14,521 nucleotides of DNA. Source: Pseudomonadota bacterium. GTDB taxonomy: Bacteria > Pseudomonadota > Gammaproteobacteria > Burkholderiales > SG8-39. Positions 8,104 to 14,038 of this stretch are shown piece after piece; position 1 is the first letter of the stretch, and every line of letters starts with the position of its first letter. A program made the translations under genes and the position numbers. The notes below the pieces were generated by a model. The model did not search any database. It was not told the DNA's origin and saw only the letters and a program-made list of their open reading frames with translations. The stretch is taken from the NCBI GenBank assembly GCA_003242425.1, contig QGUL01000007.1:1-14521 (forward strand). Direction: 5' to 3'.

Positions 8104-8592
8104 TCAGTAGACCTTGTAGGGCAGGTACTTCCCGCTCATCACGATCTTCACGCGGTCGCCCTTCGGGTCGGGTTCGCGGGAAAGCTCCATCTTGAAGTCG
8201 ATGGCGCTCATGATGCCGTCGCCGAACTCTTCGTGGATCAGCTCCTTGAAGGTCGTGCCGTACACGTTCACCAGTTCGTAGAAGCGGTAGATCAGCGGAT
8301 CGGTCGGCACGGCCGTGGGCAGCGAACCCTTGTAGGGCACGACCTGCAGCAGGTCGACGGCCTCCTGCGGCAGATCGAGCAGCTTGCCTACGGCTTCGGC
8401 CTGCTCGGCCGTCATCTGCATCTGCCCGAGGCAGGCGGCCGTCGTCCATTCCTTGCTCTGACCCACGGCCTCGGCGATCTGTGCCCAGGTCAGTTTGCGC
8501 TTGATCTTGGCGGCGACGATCATCTCCGTGACGTCTTCGCGCTTCAGCGGCCGCACGTAGGTGGCGGCGAACAGATGGTCTTCGCGTTGCAT
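8104..8592 (-). CDS. cynS: Cyanate hydratase (cyanase)
   Basis: Catalyses bicarbonate-dependent breakdown of cyanate to carbamate, which decays to ammonia and CO2; cytosolic homodecamer in the known family. The product is 162 aa (E. coli 156). The N-terminal helical part (about 15-85) contains IKRKLTWAQIAEAVGQSKEW, and the C-terminal catalytic part DPLIYRFYELVNVYGTTFKELIHE and FGDGIMSAIDF, ending in GKYLPYK. The three catalytic residues are present at Arg103, Glu106 and Ser129, exactly +7 from the E. coli Arg96/Glu99/Ser122 set. AAGGAGAT lies 6 nt before the ATG and overlaps the stop codon of the ATPase gene, 12 nt upstream, so it is the last gene of the transporter operon. No cynT-type carbonic anhydrase or CynR regulator is in the window. 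Confidence 0.97.
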   Translation of the reverse strand: MQREDHLFAATYVRPLKREDVTEMIVAAKIKRKLTWAQIAEAVGQSKEWTTAACLGQMQMTAEQAEAVGKLLDLPQEAVDLLQVVPYKGSLPTAVPTDPLIYRFYELVNVYGTTFKELIHEEFGDGIMSAIDFKMELSREPDPKGDRVKIVMSGKYLPYKVY

Positions 8593-8604
8593 GACGATCT
8601 CCTT

Positions 8605-9501
8605 TCAGTGTCGAAGTTGAACGACCTGCGCGGGCGGGCGTTCGGTCGTGTCGTCGAGGCCCGGCCGGACGACCCGCGGACGTTTGGGGTCGTGCTGCGC
8701 GCGCAGCGGTCCGTCCTGGTAGAGCCGTGAACGGTTGACGAGAAAATCCAGCAGGTGGTTGCGGATGCGGTAGTACTGCGGATCGTGGTGCATGGTGTGG
8801 CGCGTGCGGTTGCGCGGCATGGTGTTCTCCACGATCTCGGCGATGACCGCGCGCGGTCCGTTCGACATCAGCACGATGCGGTCGGCGAGCAGCAGCGCCT
8901 CGTCCACGTCGTGGGTGATCATGAACACCGTCTGCTGCGTCTGCTGCACGATGGCGAGCAGCTCGTCCTGGATGGTGCCGCGCGTGAGCGCGTCCAGGGC
9001 GCCGAAGGGTTCGTCGAGCAGCAGCATCTTCGGCCGGATCGAGAAGGCGCGCGCGATGCCGACGCGCTGCTTCATGCCGCCGGAGAGTTCCGCGGGCTTC
9101 TTGTGCTCGGCGCCGCGCAAACCCACGAGCTCGATGAACCTGCGCGCGTGTTCCTGCACCTGGTCCTCGTCCCAGTCGGGCCAGCGCGAGCGCACGGCGA
9201 AGGCGACGTTGCCCAGCACCGTCAGCCAAGGCATCAGCGCGTGGCTCTGGAACACTACGCCGCGATCGAGGCTCGGACCGGCTACCTCGCGGCCGTCCAT
9301 GATCACCACGCCCTCGGTCGCGCGTTCCAGCCCGGCCATCACGTTGAGGATGGTGGTCTTGCCGCAGCCGGAATGGCCGATGATGCAGACGAACTCGCCG
9401 CGCTCGATCTGCAGGTGCACGTCCTCGAACACCACGGTATCCGGCTTGCCGCCGCTACCCGGGTAGATCTTGGTCAGCCCTTCGATTTGCAGGAAGGCCA
9501 T
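8605..9501 (-). CDS. Nitrate/cyanate-type ABC transporter, ATP-binding protein (CynD/NrtD-like)
   Basis: Cytosolic ATPase of an importer in the nitrate/sulfonate/taurine family. All nucleotide-binding motifs are intact in 298 aa: Walker A GHSGCGKTT (residues 42-50), Q-loop glutamine in VVFQSHALMPW (about 85), signature LSGGMKQR (139-146), Walker B LLLDEPFGALD (160-170), and switch histidine in MITHDVDEAL (His197). The C-terminal tail after about residue 225 has the RNRTRHTMHHDPQYYRIRNHLLDFL text seen in NrtD-like proteins. It follows the permease after a 4-nt gap and precedes cynS by 12 nt. The operon order (binding protein, permease, ATPase, cyanase) is that of cyanobacterial cynABDS, which suggests cyanate as substrate; nitrate or nitrite cannot be excluded from sequence. 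Confidence 0.93.
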   Translation of the reverse strand: MAFLQIEGLTKIYPGSGGKPDTVVFEDVHLQIERGEFVCIIGHSGCGKTTILNVMAGLERATEGVVIMDGREVAGPSLDRGVVFQSHALMPWLTVLGNVAFAVRSRWPDWDEDQVQEHARRFIELVGLRGAEHKKPAELSGGMKQRVGIARAFSIRPKMLLLDEPFGALDALTRGTIQDELLAIVQQTQQTVFMITHDVDEALLLADRIVLMSNGPRAVIAEIVENTMPRNRTRHTMHHDPQYYRIRNHLLDFLVNRSRLYQDGPLRAQHDPKRPRVVRPGLDDTTERPPAQVVQLRH

Positions 9502-9505
9502 GGCT

Positions 9506-10342
9506 TCAATCCGCGTAGGTCACCAGCCGTTGCAGCTTCGCGAACACGAAGTCGAGCGCCATGCCGACCACGCCGATGCAGAGGATCGCGAAGATCACGT
9601 TGGTGAGATTGAGGTTGTTCCACTCGTTCCAGACGAAGTAGCCGATGCCCGTGCCGCCGACGAGCATCTCGGCCGCGACGATCACCAGCCAGGCGATGCC
9701 GATGGAAATGCGCATGCCGGTGAGGATGGTGGGCGCCGCGGCCGGCAGCACGACGAGCAGCGCCTTGCGCAGAGGCTTCACTTCGAGCGTGCGCGCGACG
9801 TTGAGCCAGTCCTTGCGCACCGCGCCGACGCCGTAGGCGGTGTTGATCAGCACCGGCCAGATCGAACAGATGAAGATCACGAAAATCCCGGACACGCTCG
9901 AATCCTTGATGGTGTAGAGCGCGAGCGGCATCCAGGCGAGCGGCGAGATCGGCTTCAGCACCTGGATGTAGGGATCGAGCGCGCGGTAGATGAGCGGCGA
10001 CATGCCGATCAGGAAGCCCAGCGGCACGGCGACCAGCAGCGCGAGCGCGTAGCCCGCGGCCACGCGCGCGAGCGAATAGCCGAGCTGGATGCCGATGCCC
10101 TTGTCGTTCGGGCCGTGGTCGTAGAAGGGATCGGCGAGGTGCCGCAGGATCGTCTCGCCCATCTGCGCGGGCGTCGGGAACCCGCCCGTCTTCTGCGCGC
10201 CGGCACCCATGAGCTTCGCGTACTCGTCGTCGACCGCCGCCGCCGATTCGGCCGGCAGGGTGACCACGTGCCACACGCCGATCAGCACCAGCAGCAGTGC
10301 CAGCGAGAGGACGGCGGCCTGAATGCCGAGCCTCGACTTCAT
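9506..10342 (-). CDS. Nitrate/cyanate-type ABC transporter, permease (CynB/NrtB-like)
   Basis: Inner-membrane subunit of the importer, 278 aa. A first membrane segment (about residues 8-28, VLSLALLLVLIGVWHVV) is followed by a periplasmic stretch of about 60 residues with FPTPAQMGETILRHLADPFYD, typical of NtrB-type permeases. The binding-protein-dependent transport domain then follows, with segments around YALALLVAVPLGFLIG, GIFVIFICSIWPVL, ISIGIAWLVIVAAEML and the last near VIFAILCIGVVGMAL. The EAA-like coupling loop reads VARTLEVKPLRKALLVVLPAAAPTILTGMR without the usual strict E-A-A. Its ATG overlaps the stop of the binding-protein gene by four bases (ATGA, 10339-10342), and AAGGTGG lies just upstream. 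Confidence 0.93.
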   Translation of the reverse strand: MKSRLGIQAAVLSLALLLVLIGVWHVVTLPAESAAAVDDEYAKLMGAGAQKTGGFPTPAQMGETILRHLADPFYDHGPNDKGIGIQLGYSLARVAAGYALALLVAVPLGFLIGMSPLIYRALDPYIQVLKPISPLAWMPLALYTIKDSSVSGIFVIFICSIWPVLINTAYGVGAVRKDWLNVARTLEVKPLRKALLVVLPAAAPTILTGMRISIGIAWLVIVAAEMLVGGTGIGYFVWNEWNNLNLTNVIFAILCIGVVGMALDFVFAKLQRLVTYAD

Positions 10343-11718
10343 GCCGCCACCTTTTTGATCGGGAAGCTCGCCAGGTACTTCTCAGGTGCGCTGGGGTCGA
10401 ACTCCTTGCCCATGATGACGGCCTTGGCGTAGCTCGTCTTGGGCGCCTCCATGCCGAGTTCGGCCATGTGCTTGCGCGCATCGGTGGCGAGGAACACCTG
10501 CTCGGCGATCTGCTTGTAGTTGACGTCGCCCTTGAGGTAGCCCCAGCGCTTCATCTGCGTGAGCATCCACACCGCCATCGAATGCCAGGGGAAGGGATCG
10601 AAGTCGGCGCGGTCGGGCACGTTCTGCACCTTGCCAAGACCGTCGGCGAAGCGGCCGGTCAGCACCTGCTCGATCACCGTGACCGGCTGGTTGAGGTAGT
10701 TGGCCGGCGCGATGCTCTCGGCGATGAGCGAACGGTTCTTGGGATCGCGCGCCATCTGCGCGGCGTTCAGCACCGCGCGGTAGAGCGCGGCGAAGGTATT
10801 CGGGTTCTCGCGGATGAAGGCCTCGGAGGTGCCGAAGGCGCAGCACGGATGGCCGTCCCAGATGTCCTTGGAGAGGATGTGGATGAAGCCCACCTCGTCA
10901 TAGACCGCGCGCTGGTTGAAGGGATCGGGGCCGAGGAAGCCGTCGATGTTGCCGGCGCGCAGGTTCGCCACCATTTCCGGCGGCGGCGTGACGCGGATCT
11001 GGATGTCGGTGTCGGGGTCGAGGCCGTGCTCTGCGACGTAGTAGCGCAGCAGGAAGTTGTGCATCGAATACTCGAAGGGCACGGCGAACTTGAAGCCCTT
11101 CCACTGTCTGGGATTGCGCTTGTCCTTGTGCTTGAGGTGCAGCGTGATCGCCTGGCCGTTGATGTTCTGGATCGTCGCCACGCGCATCGGCGCGGCGACC
11201 GAGCCGAGCCCCAGCGAAGTGGCAAGGGGCATCGGCGACAAGAAGTGCGTCGCGTCGTACTCCTTGTTCAGCATCTTGTCGCGGATGAGCGCCCAGCCGG
11301 CGGTCTTGTGCAGGCGCACGCTGAGCCCTTCCTTGCGGTAGAAGCCGAGCGGATCGGCCATGATGAGCGGGCTCGCGCAGGTGATGGCGATGAAGCCGAT
11401 GTCGAGTTCTTTCTTCTCGAGCGTGCCTTTCTCCTGCGCCATCGCCTCCAGCGCGCCGAAGGGAATGAACTGCGAGATCGCGGCGGCCGCGGTCGATGCG
11501 CCGACCGCGCGCAGGAAGCGGCGCCGGGTTTCGTCGTGCGGGAACAGCGCCCGCATCACCGCGGACTGGATGACGCGGCGGTTGAGCGATTCGATGCTGT
11601 TGTCGAGCGAGTCGGACTGCTGCGCGGCGGCGTGCTCGGCTTCGTCACGATGCCGGCCGCAGCTGCATCCGGCGCCGAGGCGGACGTCCGGGTCGAAAGG
11701 GTTCTTGAAGGCGGACAT
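10339..11718 (-). CDS. Nitrate/cyanate-type ABC transporter, Tat-exported substrate-binding protein (CynA/NrtA-like)
   Basis: Periplasmic receptor of the importer, 459 aa, first gene of the operon. A strong ribosome site GGGAGG (11725-11730) fixes the ATG at 11718, so an unusual N-terminal extension of about 60 residues is real. It holds a CSCGRHRDEAEH cluster (Cys18, Cys20, His23, His29) before the twin-arginine signal TRRRFLRAVGAS (64-75) and a hydrophobic run to AMA (92-94). The mature part begins ELDIGFIAITCASPLIMADPLGFYRKEGL and contains DATHFLSPMPLATSLG, GFKFAVPFEYSMHNFLLRYYV, NLRAGNIDGFLGPDPFNQRAV and DIWDGHPCCAFG. This is the NrtA/CmpA/CynA text that encloses a small planar anion. Because it carries a Tat signal rather than a lipobox, it is probably soluble in the periplasm and exported folded. 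Substrate cyanate is inferred from cynS. Confidence 0.93.
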   Translation of the reverse strand: MSAFKNPFDPDVRLGAGCSCGRHRDEAEHAAAQQSDSLDNSIESLNRRVIQSAVMRALFPHDETRRRFLRAVGASTAAAAISQFIPFGALEAMAQEKGTLEKKELDIGFIAITCASPLIMADPLGFYRKEGLSVRLHKTAGWALIRDKMLNKEYDATHFLSPMPLATSLGLGSVAAPMRVATIQNINGQAITLHLKHKDKRNPRQWKGFKFAVPFEYSMHNFLLRYYVAEHGLDPDTDIQIRVTPPPEMVANLRAGNIDGFLGPDPFNQRAVYDEVGFIHILSKDIWDGHPCCAFGTSEAFIRENPNTFAALYRAVLNAAQMARDPKNRSLIAESIAPANYLNQPVTVIEQVLTGRFADGLGKVQNVPDRADFDPFPWHSMAVWMLTQMKRWGYLKGDVNYKQIAEQVFLATDARKHMAELGMEAPKTSYAKAVIMGKEFDPSAPEKYLASFPIKKVAA

Positions 11719-11751: not shown

Positions 11752-11767
11752 TGCATCAGCTATGCCA
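11752..11767 (-). promoter_or_regulatory. Sigma-54 (-24/-12) promoter of the transporter-cyanase operon
   Basis: On the minus strand: TGGCATA-N4-ATGCA, with GG and GC exactly in the -24/-12 spacing (consensus TGGCACG-N4-TTGCA). Predicted start is 11741, giving a 22-nt leader that contains the GGGAGG ribosome site at 11725-11730. It indicates RpoN-dependent expression with an enhancer-binding activator such as NtrC. Confidence 0.8.
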
Positions 11768-11777
11768 CTGTCGCAGG

Positions 11778-11797
11778 TTCAGGTTAAGTCATTGAAA
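11778..11797 (-). promoter_or_regulatory. 20-nt element shared with the glnA promoter (copy 1)
   Basis: Minus strand TTTCAATGACTTAACCTGAA, 17 of 20 identical to the element at 12513-12532 before glnA. It ends 10 nt before the -24 box of this promoter (17 nt if only the TTTCAATnnCTTA core is counted). The core matches the IHF consensus WATCAANNNNTTR except at one position. Confidence 0.6.
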
Positions 11798-11853
11798 GAA
11801 AATTAGGAAAACGGTCGGGCGGGCTGACGGAAGGCGCGCGGCGGCGGGGGCGC

Positions 11854-11893
11854 GCCGCCTCGTGCCGGTGCGCTGCCGCCTCAGGCTGGTGCG
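11854..11893. repeat. Tandem 19-bp direct repeat, candidate upstream activating sites
   Basis: GCCGCCTC-N5-GGTGCG occurs at 11854-11872 and again at 11875-11893. All 14 fixed positions are identical and the period is 21 bp. Each right half resembles the NtrC half-site GGTGCA; the left half is poor. The centres lie about 122 and 143 bp upstream of the predicted sigma-54 start, right after the rhodanese stop codon. A GC-rich hairpin (GGCGCG 11833-11838 with CGCGCC 11851-11856), a weak terminator candidate for the rhodanese gene, lies beside it. Confidence 0.5.
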
Positions 11894-11894
11894 T

Positions 11895-12350
11895 CTAGCT
11901 TTGCTTCCACGGCAGGCCGTGATAGCGCCAGCCGCCCACGGTGTTGCGCTGTCCGGCGTCGTTTTTGTCGCCCTCGAAGCCTTCCAGCACGTTGTAGACG
12001 TTGGTGTAGCCGAGTTCGGCCGCCAGCGCGGCCGCGGCATGGGAGCGGGCGCCGCTGCGGCAGATGAACAGCAGCGGCGTGGACTTGTCCGGCACCTCGC
12101 GTTGCAAGGTCTCGGCGAAGGCCGGATTGCGCGTGCCCGCCGGCCAGGTGTTCCACTCGATCTGCAGGGACCCCGGGATATAACCCACCCAGTTCCACTC
12201 CGCCTGGGTGCGCACGTCCACCAGCCGTGCGTTCGGCACATGCTGCAGCACGGTATAAGCCTGGGGCGGGGTCACCGCACCGGTATAGGGCAGGTTCTTG
12301 GCGGTAGCGGCTGCACGCGCCTCGGCCAGGATTTTCTCAATGTCGTTCAT
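11895..12350 (-). CDS. Rhodanese-like domain protein between glnA and the cyanase operon
   Basis: A 151-aa protein with one rhodanese domain. After an N-terminal helix MNDIEKILAEARAAAT come TPPQAYTVLQ, ARLVDVRTQAEWNWVGYIPG (the conserved D-V-R and a G-Y-I-P-G turn), and the active-site loop FICRSGARSHAAA with Cys97. GYTNVYNVLEGFEGD and a C-terminal WRYHGLPWKQ follow. The loop CRSGARS is full length and catalytic-looking. No signal peptide. The start at 12350 has CGGAG about 7 nt upstream. It reads away from glnA and toward the cyanase operon, but a sigma-54 promoter and 176 bp separate it from the latter, so it is probably its own unit. Its role is not known; a link to cyanide/thiocyanate/cyanate chemistry is possible but only suggested by position. 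Confidence 0.92.
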   Translation of the reverse strand: MNDIEKILAEARAAATAKNLPYTGAVTPPQAYTVLQHVPNARLVDVRTQAEWNWVGYIPGSLQIEWNTWPAGTRNPAFAETLQREVPDKSTPLLFICRSGARSHAAAALAAELGYTNVYNVLEGFEGDKNDAGQRNTVGGWRYHGLPWKQS

Positions 12351-12431
12351 GGTTTAGCTCCGCAGTAGGGTTCTTGAGGGGGCGCTCCGGCCGGCCGCCG
12401 TAGCGCCATTCGTCTCAGGCCCGGGCCTTGC

Positions 12432-12448
12432 TGCACTATCTTGGTGCA
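12432..12448. promoter_or_regulatory. NtrC-type binding site 1 upstream of glnA
   Basis: TGCACT-ATCTT-GGTGCA matches the NtrC dyad TGCACC-N5-GGTGCA at 11 of 12 positions. Its centre is about 127 bp upstream of the predicted glnA start point. The same site could serve the divergent rhodanese gene. Confidence 0.8.
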
Positions 12449-12461
12449 TTTTTTTATTGGA

Positions 12462-12478
12462 TGCTTCATCATGGTGCA
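12462..12478. promoter_or_regulatory. NtrC-type binding site 2 upstream of glnA
   Basis: TGCTTC-ATCAT-GGTGCA: perfect right half, left half 4 of 6. The centre is 30 bp (about three helical turns) from site 1, allowing cooperative binding on one face, and about 97 bp upstream of the predicted start. Confidence 0.7.
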
Positions 12479-12512
12479 TCCGGCCGTTGAGGCTTGATAA
12501 AAAGAGGCATGA

Positions 12513-12532
12513 TTTCAATCGCTTATCCTGAA
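12513..12532 (+). promoter_or_regulatory. 20-nt element shared with the cyanase operon promoter (copy 2); IHF-like core
   Basis: TTTCAATCGCTTATCCTGAA, 17 of 20 identical to copy 1. It lies between the NtrC sites and the -24 box, the usual place for IHF bending. TTTCAATCGCTTA fits WATCAANNNNTTR at all but one defined position. Confidence 0.6.
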
Positions 12533-12540
12533 TATCAAAG

Positions 12541-12556
12541 TGGCATGCTTCTCGCA
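12541..12556 (+). promoter_or_regulatory. Sigma-54 (-24/-12) promoter of glnA
   Basis: TGGCATG-N4-TCGCA has GG and GC in correct -24/-12 spacing. Predicted start is 12567, giving a 56-nt leader before the glnA ATG. With the two NtrC sites upstream it forms a standard nitrogen-limitation promoter. Confidence 0.82.
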
Positions 12557-12622: not shown

Positions 12623-14038
12623 ATGGCACTTACCAGCGCCGATGTACTGAAGCTGATCAAAGAAAAAGAAGTCAAGTTCGTGGACATGCGCTTTACCGAC
12701 ACCCGCGGTAAGGAGCAGCACGTTCAGATCCCCGCCAAGCACTTCAACGAAGACAAGTTCGAAAACGGCCAGCCCTTCGATGGTTCGTCCATCGCCGGCT
12801 GGAAGGGGATCGAGGCTTCCGACATGATCCTGATGCCCGATCCGGACACCGCACGGCTCGACCCGTTCACGGACGAGACCACGCTCAACATCACCTGCGA
12901 CGTCATCGAGCCTTCCACCGGCAAGGGCTACGACCGCGATCCGCGTTCGCTTGCCAAGCGTGCCGAAGCCTACCTGAAGTCTTCGGGTATCGGCGATGCC
13001 GCGTACTTCGGCCCGGAACCCGAATTCTTCGTGTTCGACAGCGTCACCTGGAAGATCGACGCCTCCGGCAGCTTCGTCAAAATCAAGTCCGAAGAAGCGC
13101 CCTGGTCCAGCGGGGAAGAGTTCGAGGGCGGCAACATGGGCCATCGCCCCACCACCAAAGGCGGCTACTTCCCGGTGCCGCCGGTCGATTCCCTGCAGGA
13201 CCTGCGTCAGTCCATCGCGCTGGCGCTGGAGGCGCAGGGCGTGGACGTCGAAGTCCTGCACCATGAGGTGGCGGGCGCCGGCCAGTGCGAACTGGGCACC
13301 CGTTTCAACACCCTGGTGAAGCGCGCCGACTGGACGCAGATCCTCAAGTACACCGTGCACATGGTCGCACAGGCCTACGGCAAGACCGCGACCTTCATGC
13401 CGAAGCCCGTCGTGGGCGACAACGGCTCGGGCATGCACGTGCACATGTCGGTGTGGAAGGACGGCCAGAACCTGTTCGCCGGCAACGGCTACGCGGGCCT
13501 GTCCGATTTCGCGCTGTACTTCATCGGCGGCATCATCAAGCACGCGCGTGCGCTGAACGCCATCACCAACCCCGGCACGAACTCCTACAAGCGTCTGGTG
13601 CCGGGCTTCGAGGCGCCGATCAACCTCGCCTACTCGGCGCGCAACCGTTCGGCTTCCTGCCGCATCCCGTACTCGAGCAACCCCAAAGGGCGCCGCATCG
13701 AGGTGCGCTTCCCCGATCCGACGGCGAATTCCTACCTGGCGTTCGCCGCGCTGCTGATGGCGGGCCTGGACGGCGTGCAGAACAAGATCCATCCCGGCGA
13801 TCCGATCGACAAGAACCTCTACGATCTGCCGCCGGAAGAGGCCGCCAAGGTGCCGACCGTGGCGCACTCGCTCGACATGGCGCTGGAAGCCCTCGACAAG
13901 GACCGCGAGTTCCTGACCCGCGGCGGGGTGTTCACCAACGACATGATCGACGCGTACATCGAACTGAAGATGGAGGAGGTCACGCGCTTCCGCATGACCA
14001 CCCATCCGGTCGAGTTCGAGATGTACTACAGCCTGTAA
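12623..14038 (+). CDS. glnA: Glutamine synthetase type I (GSI-beta)
   Basis: ATP-dependent synthesis of glutamine from glutamate and ammonia; cytosolic dodecamer. The 471 aa match the enterobacterial enzyme's length. The N-terminal beta-grasp domain includes [19 protein letters not shown]. The catalytic domain shows [61 protein letters not shown] and [19 protein letters not shown]. The adenylylation tyrosine lies in [10 protein letters not shown] (about Tyr400), so activity is probably controlled by GlnE; the insertion typical of the beta class is present. TAGGAGA (12611-12617) precedes the ATG. Transcription is from the sigma-54 promoter above, under NtrC. A large GC-rich hairpin follows 9 nt after the stop, then a DUF4124-like gene; in relatives glnL/glnG often come next. 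Confidence 0.98.

Follow-up and report, generated by a model that had tools for sequence, protein, structure and literature searches.

The window (i.e. the whole 14,521-nt stretch of DNA that was analysed) contains glnA, which encodes a type I glutamine synthetase, and, on the opposite strand, a rhodanese-domain gene followed by cynABDS (11718 down to 8104), a set of genes for a cyanate/nitrate-type ABC transporter and a cyanase (Table 1). The name cynA was given to the gene for the substrate-binding protein because of its position ahead of CynB, CynD and CynS. Cyn genes, a rhodanese gene and a divergent glnA were found together in seven relatives (G005, G020, G023, G030, G036, G058 and G085). 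Extra genes separated the rhodanese gene from cynA in G005 and G020, and cynS alone was seen beside the rhodanese gene within the stretch read for G030. A literature search on titles found no paper title naming this arrangement. In G005 (L094, 3357-5311), genes for a PAS histidine kinase and a LuxR-type response regulator were located between the rhodanese gene and cynA; no sigma-54 box was detected for this cynA at the score threshold given below, and the regulator of these cyn genes has possibly changed.

Table 1. Genes and sequence features of the glnA-cyn region, with positions in the window.
Feature	Position	Strand	Basis or remark
cynS, cyanase	8104..8592	-	TIGR00673 above cut-off
cynD, ATPase	8605..9501	-	TIGR01184 above cut-off
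cynB, permease	9506..10342	-	TIGR01183 above cut-off
cynA, substrate-binding protein, cyanate/nitrate-type ABC transporter	10339..11718	-	PF13379
Putative sigma-54 -24/-12 box of cynA, TGGCATAGCTGATGCA	11752..11767	-	conserved before cynA in relatives
Shared 20-mer, cyn copy, TTTCAATGACTTAACCTGAA	11778..11797	-	IHF-like core 11797-11785, 17 nt before TGGCAT
A/T-rich stretch 5' of cyn core, GTTTTCCTAATTTTC	11798..11812	-	sequence
Two weak NtrC-like stretches upstream of cyn box, 21 bp apart	11856..11893	-	4 mismatches each
Rhodanese-domain gene, between glnA and cyn promoters	11895..12350	-	PF00581
Putative NtrC site 1, TGCACTATCTTGGTGCA	12432..12448	+	0 mismatches to consensus TGCACYNNNNNRGTGCA
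Putative NtrC site 2, TGCTTCATCATGGTGCA, 30 bp from site 1	12462..12478	+	2 mismatches to consensus TGCACYNNNNNRGTGCA
A5 run, 9 nt 5' of glnA core	12499..12503	+	sequence
Shared 20-mer, glnA copy, TTTCAATCGCTTATCCTGAA	12513..12532	+	IHF-like core 12513-12525, 15 nt before TGGCAT
Putative sigma-54 -24/-12 box of glnA, TGGCATGCTTCTCGCA	12541..12556	+	conserved before glnA in relatives
glnA, type I glutamine synthetase	12623..14038	+	TIGR00653, 670.6 bits vs cut-off 429

Both putative sigma-54 boxes fit TGGCAYR-N5-YGCW, with GG and GC spaced by 10 bp, and obtained scores of 14.1 and 13.6 on the scale used throughout. The boxes are ~780 bp apart and would fire in opposite directions, away from each other. 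A box was called if it scored at least 12.5, was no more than 200 or 120 nt away from the start and had at least 60 nt of DNA upstream. A glnA gene was found in 146 of 149 genomes, and upstream DNA was used from 90 of these, including this genome. A cynS gene was found in 45 of the 149, and examination of 38 loci plus the window yielded 29 upstream regions of cynA, representing 28 genomes. At the score threshold, and with this genome included, a box was present in 71/90 glnA and 23/29 cyn upstream regions; the other 19 and 6 regions were left out of the counts for want of a box. As a genome-wide search tool the sigma-54 pattern is a weak finder, because the reversed pattern matched this genome more often than the pattern itself (39 vs 14 matches), and the 12 further sigma-54-like sites of the genome probably include some that are not promoters.

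Genes for NtrC and RpoN are present in the genome. Matches to the NtrC consensus with up to two mismatches preceded glnA in 63/71 promoters as compared to 1.8 expected, and two such sites are located in the window. Upstream of the cyn genes of this genome no clear NtrC site was observed, the best candidate having four mismatches to TGCACYNNNNNRGTGCA; sites with up to two mismatches were detected in 9/23 cyn promoters, all in relatives, vs 0.7 expected. The two weak NtrC-like stretches upstream of the cyn box were rejected as a cyn NtrC site, since many places in the window have four mismatches and the match is therefore not above chance. These similar 17-bp stretches (CGCACC..GAGGCG) are situated right after the stop codon of the rhodanese gene and could serve as activator sites or belong to a G+C-rich terminator.

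The original prediction described a 20-nt element shared by the promoters of glnA and the cyn operon, and both copies were found at the claimed places and on the claimed strands. The two 20-mers are identical at 17/20 positions, with differences confined to positions 8, 9 and 14. The distance from the end of the 20-mer to TGGCAT, which had been described, correctly, as nearly the same in both promoters, is 8 nt for glnA and 10 nt for cyn. The reported fit of the first 13 bases to the IHF consensus WATCARNNNNTTR was likewise confirmed, the single mismatch in each copy being the same A-to-T change at position 2; the window has five places within one mismatch of this core, two of which are these copies. 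A pair with at least 17/20 identity is not in itself rare, because the window contains 68 such direct pairs (and an inverted count of 92, in which every pair is counted twice). The notable point is that both copies are positioned within sigma-54 spacers. Across 20,000 pairs of shuffled spacers, identities of at least 17/20 occurred at a rate of 5e-5 with mononucleotide shuffling and 0 with a first-order Markov model. With nine IHF core bases fixed in both spacers this rate was 0.0042, so that the IHF core by itself leaves the CCTGAA tail unexplained. Eight of the 11 positions outside these nine bases also agree, including CCTGAA. Comparisons of glnA with cyn spacers between genomes gave a best value of 15 and a mean of 11.8 (210 pairs), and the same comparison within each of 14 further genomes, for which both promoters had been scored, gave 11-14, with a best value of 14. 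The likeness of the two spacers is unusual, and the IHF core explains much of this likeness, not all.

In known IHF sites an A/T tract is present 5' of the core, which is where the A5 run of glnA lies. The raw A+T content of the 20 nt 5' of the core is 65% (glnA) and 60% (cyn). Spacers were scanned for IHF-like cores with up to two mismatches to the consensus in 6-nt bins, which were chosen after a first look; the relatives are not independent of one another. In forward orientation, 9/71 glnA promoters (this genome included) had a core 13-18 nt ahead of the -24 box as compared to 1.6 expected from shuffles, seven of the nine cores having two mismatches or coming from this genome. Each of the other eight forward glnA bins held 1 to 4 cores vs about 2 expected, i.e. 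at most twice the expectation. For cyn, again with this genome included, 3/23 promoters had a forward core in the 13-18 bin vs 0.4 expected, and the 25-30 bin was as rich (forward, 3 vs 0.3; reverse, 3 vs 0.7). Reverse cores before glnA were in excess in the bins at 7-12 (8 vs 2.4), 13-18 (9 vs 1.8), 37-42 (6 vs 2.2) and 49-54 (6 vs 2.6), and many of the reverse matches at 7-18 are the CACAAT motif described below. The recurring feature is an IHF-like core that precedes the -24 box by 13-18 nt, with a weaker signal for cyn than for glnA. This is a hint of a positional constraint on such cores, with respect to the -24 box, in the glnA promoters of this order. In another genus, TATCAGAGAGTTA (no mismatch) and GATCAGGGAGTTA (one mismatch) were found at a gap of 16, the window cores being at 15 and 17. 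Across the whole spacer (-80 to -2) and with up to one mismatch, enrichment was weak (glnA, 8/71 vs 4.6; cyn, 4/23 vs 1.0), so that most relatives are without a clear IHF site. The genome contains a gene for IHF-alpha; IHF-beta was not found, a PF00216 search of the 90.7%-complete draft having matched IHF-alpha alone.

The CACAAT motif, TTRTGGCACAAT, often followed by gc..tgct, ended 20-23 nt before the -24 box in 22/71 glnA promoters (e.g. L145 in G036, L134 in G052 and L005 in G023). This motif is preceded by TT in 95-100% of cases, which is outside the search pattern, and may represent either a second promoter, as its extended -10, or an IHF site in reverse orientation.

Conservation of the 20-mer was assessed in relatives outside the genus of this genome, in which sigma-54 boxes persist while the spacers drift. 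The element was absent from the glnA and cyn spacers scored in these other genera, with best identities of 13/20 among 70 glnA spacers and 11/20 among 22 cyn spacers. Absence before orthologous glnA or cyn genes had been named in the original prediction as grounds for its refutation, and within the relatives covered this is what was observed. Mean best identities were indistinct from shuffled values, both for the glnA copy against glnA spacers (9.76 vs 9.73) and for the cyn copy against cyn spacers (9.18 vs 9.12). The 2.42 Mb draft genome itself has no third copy with up to two mismatches and one further place at three mismatches. Nor did the element recur upstream of the other sigma-54-like sites of this genome, the spacers of all 12 differing from it by 7 to 10 mismatches.

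Matches to the element with up to two mismatches were present in 58/299 genomes including this one, i.e. at 83 places in 57/298 relatives. One place runs into masked bases; among the 82 that were scored, a single box-like sequence was observed behind the match (L303, TGGCAGCCGACTGGCA, 3 nt behind, score 12.7) as compared to 0.2 expected, random places in these loci reaching a score of 12.5 at a rate of 0.0024. None of these loci contained GlnA, rhodanese, CynA, CynB or CynS, and one holds an ABC ATPase with 34% identity to CynD. A scan of a genome collection, from which records close to this genome are possibly missing, returned 71 exact matches spread across many, mainly non-proteobacterial, groups. 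None of these had a box with a score of at least 12.5, and two reached at least 11 (L240 and L262) vs 1.4 expected; with less strict patterns, six of the 71 were picked out, two by TGGCA alone, two by GG-N10-GC and two by other sequences. A fixed 20-nt sigma-54 module was thus rejected on the basis of the genome itself, the relatives covered and the genome collection. Of the fixed IHF/sigma-54 module proposed originally, the association of IHF with sigma-54 is supported, in the form of an ordinary IHF site in a favoured position, and the fixed 20-nt unit is not.

The best explanation, to which we assign a probability of roughly 0.7, is that the two 20-mers each form the 3' half of a bending site of the IHF type, 15 nt (glnA) or 17 nt (cyn) before the -24 box, and that these are ordinary sites aiding sigma-54 activation, with a tail that has no function. 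Binding of IHF, its helping effect and the same kind of control for cyn are all predictions from sequence. IHF would bend the spacer between the upstream activator sites and the sigma-54 box, and this bend would let an enhancer-binding protein (i.e. NtrC at glnA) touch the sigma-54 RNA polymerase; activation would occur under nitrogen shortage. Such a bending role for IHF at sigma-54 promoters is stated in a review (PMC7057263). The IHF part of the likeness is plausible. The bases common to both copies outside the core (T7, C10 and CCTGAA) are most likely due to chance in A/T-rich spacers or to a short local conversion, with no function of their own, and the CCTGAA tail is probably a product of chance or local history. 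As a regulatory element the site is ordinary and its type is known; naming the 20-nt stretch as a unit of its own is unsupported.

Chance likeness in A/T-rich spacers, with neither copy a working IHF site, is an unlikely alternative to this reading. The abundance of direct pairs at this level of identity in the window (68), the non-conservation of the element and the near-shuffle number of IHF consensus matches with up to one mismatch in full glnA spacers (8/71 vs 4.6) are as chance would have them; however, shuffles of both spacers produced 17/20 at 5e-5 or less, spacer pairs elsewhere peaked at 15 (210 between-genome pairs) and 14 (14 other within-genome pairs), and both IHF cores sit where forward glnA cores are enriched. 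We consider it improbable that a short gene conversion or a duplication made one spacer a copy of the other. The proximity of the promoters (boxes ~780 bp apart and firing away from each other) and the restriction of 17/20 identity to this genome would suit such an event, but the likeness ends at the edges of the 20-mer, with flanks that appear unrelated when compared by eye, there is a 2-nt difference between the gaps to TGGCAT and a clear NtrC site did not accompany the 20-mer, such sites being found at glnA only. Moreover, within-genome similarity in the 14 other genomes (11-14) was like that between genomes (mean 11.8, maximum 15). The earlier suggestion that one promoter derives from the other consequently has little support.

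If glnA and cyn had a further regulator, specific to the lineage, with a site overlapping or replacing that of IHF, this would account for the agreement at 8/11 non-core positions, CCTGAA among them (rate 0.0042 with the cores fixed). These common bases beyond the core are all that favours the additional factor raised in the original prediction, and its existence is very doubtful: no third genomic site was found within two mismatches, none occurred at the 12 other sigma-54-like sites or at glnA or cyn of the relatives scored, and the element is not palindromic by eye. Equally slim are the chances of an extended site (i.e. IHF core plus CCTGAA) that is particular to this genus and read by a second protein or a variant IHF. 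If this extended-site reading were true, glnA and cynABDS would be switched jointly and separately from other sigma-54 promoters. Finally, TTTCAAT might belong to an overlapping sigma-70 promoter as a -10-like element, as the glnA copy of this sequence ends 21 nt before the -24 box and TTRTGGCACAAT ends at 20-23 nt in 22/71 glnA promoters. This we regard as extremely improbable, since TTCAAT is a weak -10, no properly spaced -35 was apparent by eye and the cyn profile of relatives has no conserved motif at that place.

The reading of the 20-mers as halves of ordinary IHF-type sites adds a predicted IHF-assisted sigma-54 promoter pair to present knowledge of cyanate as a nitrogen source, and the recurrence of a cyn-rhodanese-glnA neighbourhood is a further addition. 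The glnA promoter resembles that of Xylella fastidiosa, for which a sigma-54 start was mapped and putative NtrC and IHF sites were reported (PMC3224663). Both have a single sigma-54 promoter, two NtrC sites and one IHF site (AATCAA-N4-TTG in Xylella), these sites all being putative; the IHF match was called perfect and the start was mapped in Xylella, whereas the site described here has one mismatch and is predicted from sequence. Neighbouring divergent sigma-54 promoters with an IHF site each are also found at orp1/orp2 of Desulfovibrio vulgaris (PMC3897727). The orp IHF sites are near -42/-43 or -79, between the activator site and the sigma-54 box, and for two of the three, mutation and gel shift demonstrated a need for IHF. 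Both orp promoters are served by one activator, DVU2106, and the IHF sites quoted for them are alike in consensus only, unlike the 20-mers of the window. The cyn operon corresponds to cynFABDS of Pseudomonas pseudoalcaligenes CECT5344, which comprises the same transporter-cyanase genes with a predicted sigma-54 box before cynA, is repressed by ammonium and needs a dedicated activator, CynF (PMC6627978). In CECT5344 the Fis-type sigma-54 activator gene cynF is divergent beside cynA, whereas a rhodanese gene and glnA are present here and no cynF-like activator gene was seen within the window. One relative (G020) has a GAF-AAA-Fis sigma-54 activator gene between the rhodanese gene and cynA (L100, 3108-4715), a placement that resembles that of Pseudomonas cynF, adjacent to cynA.
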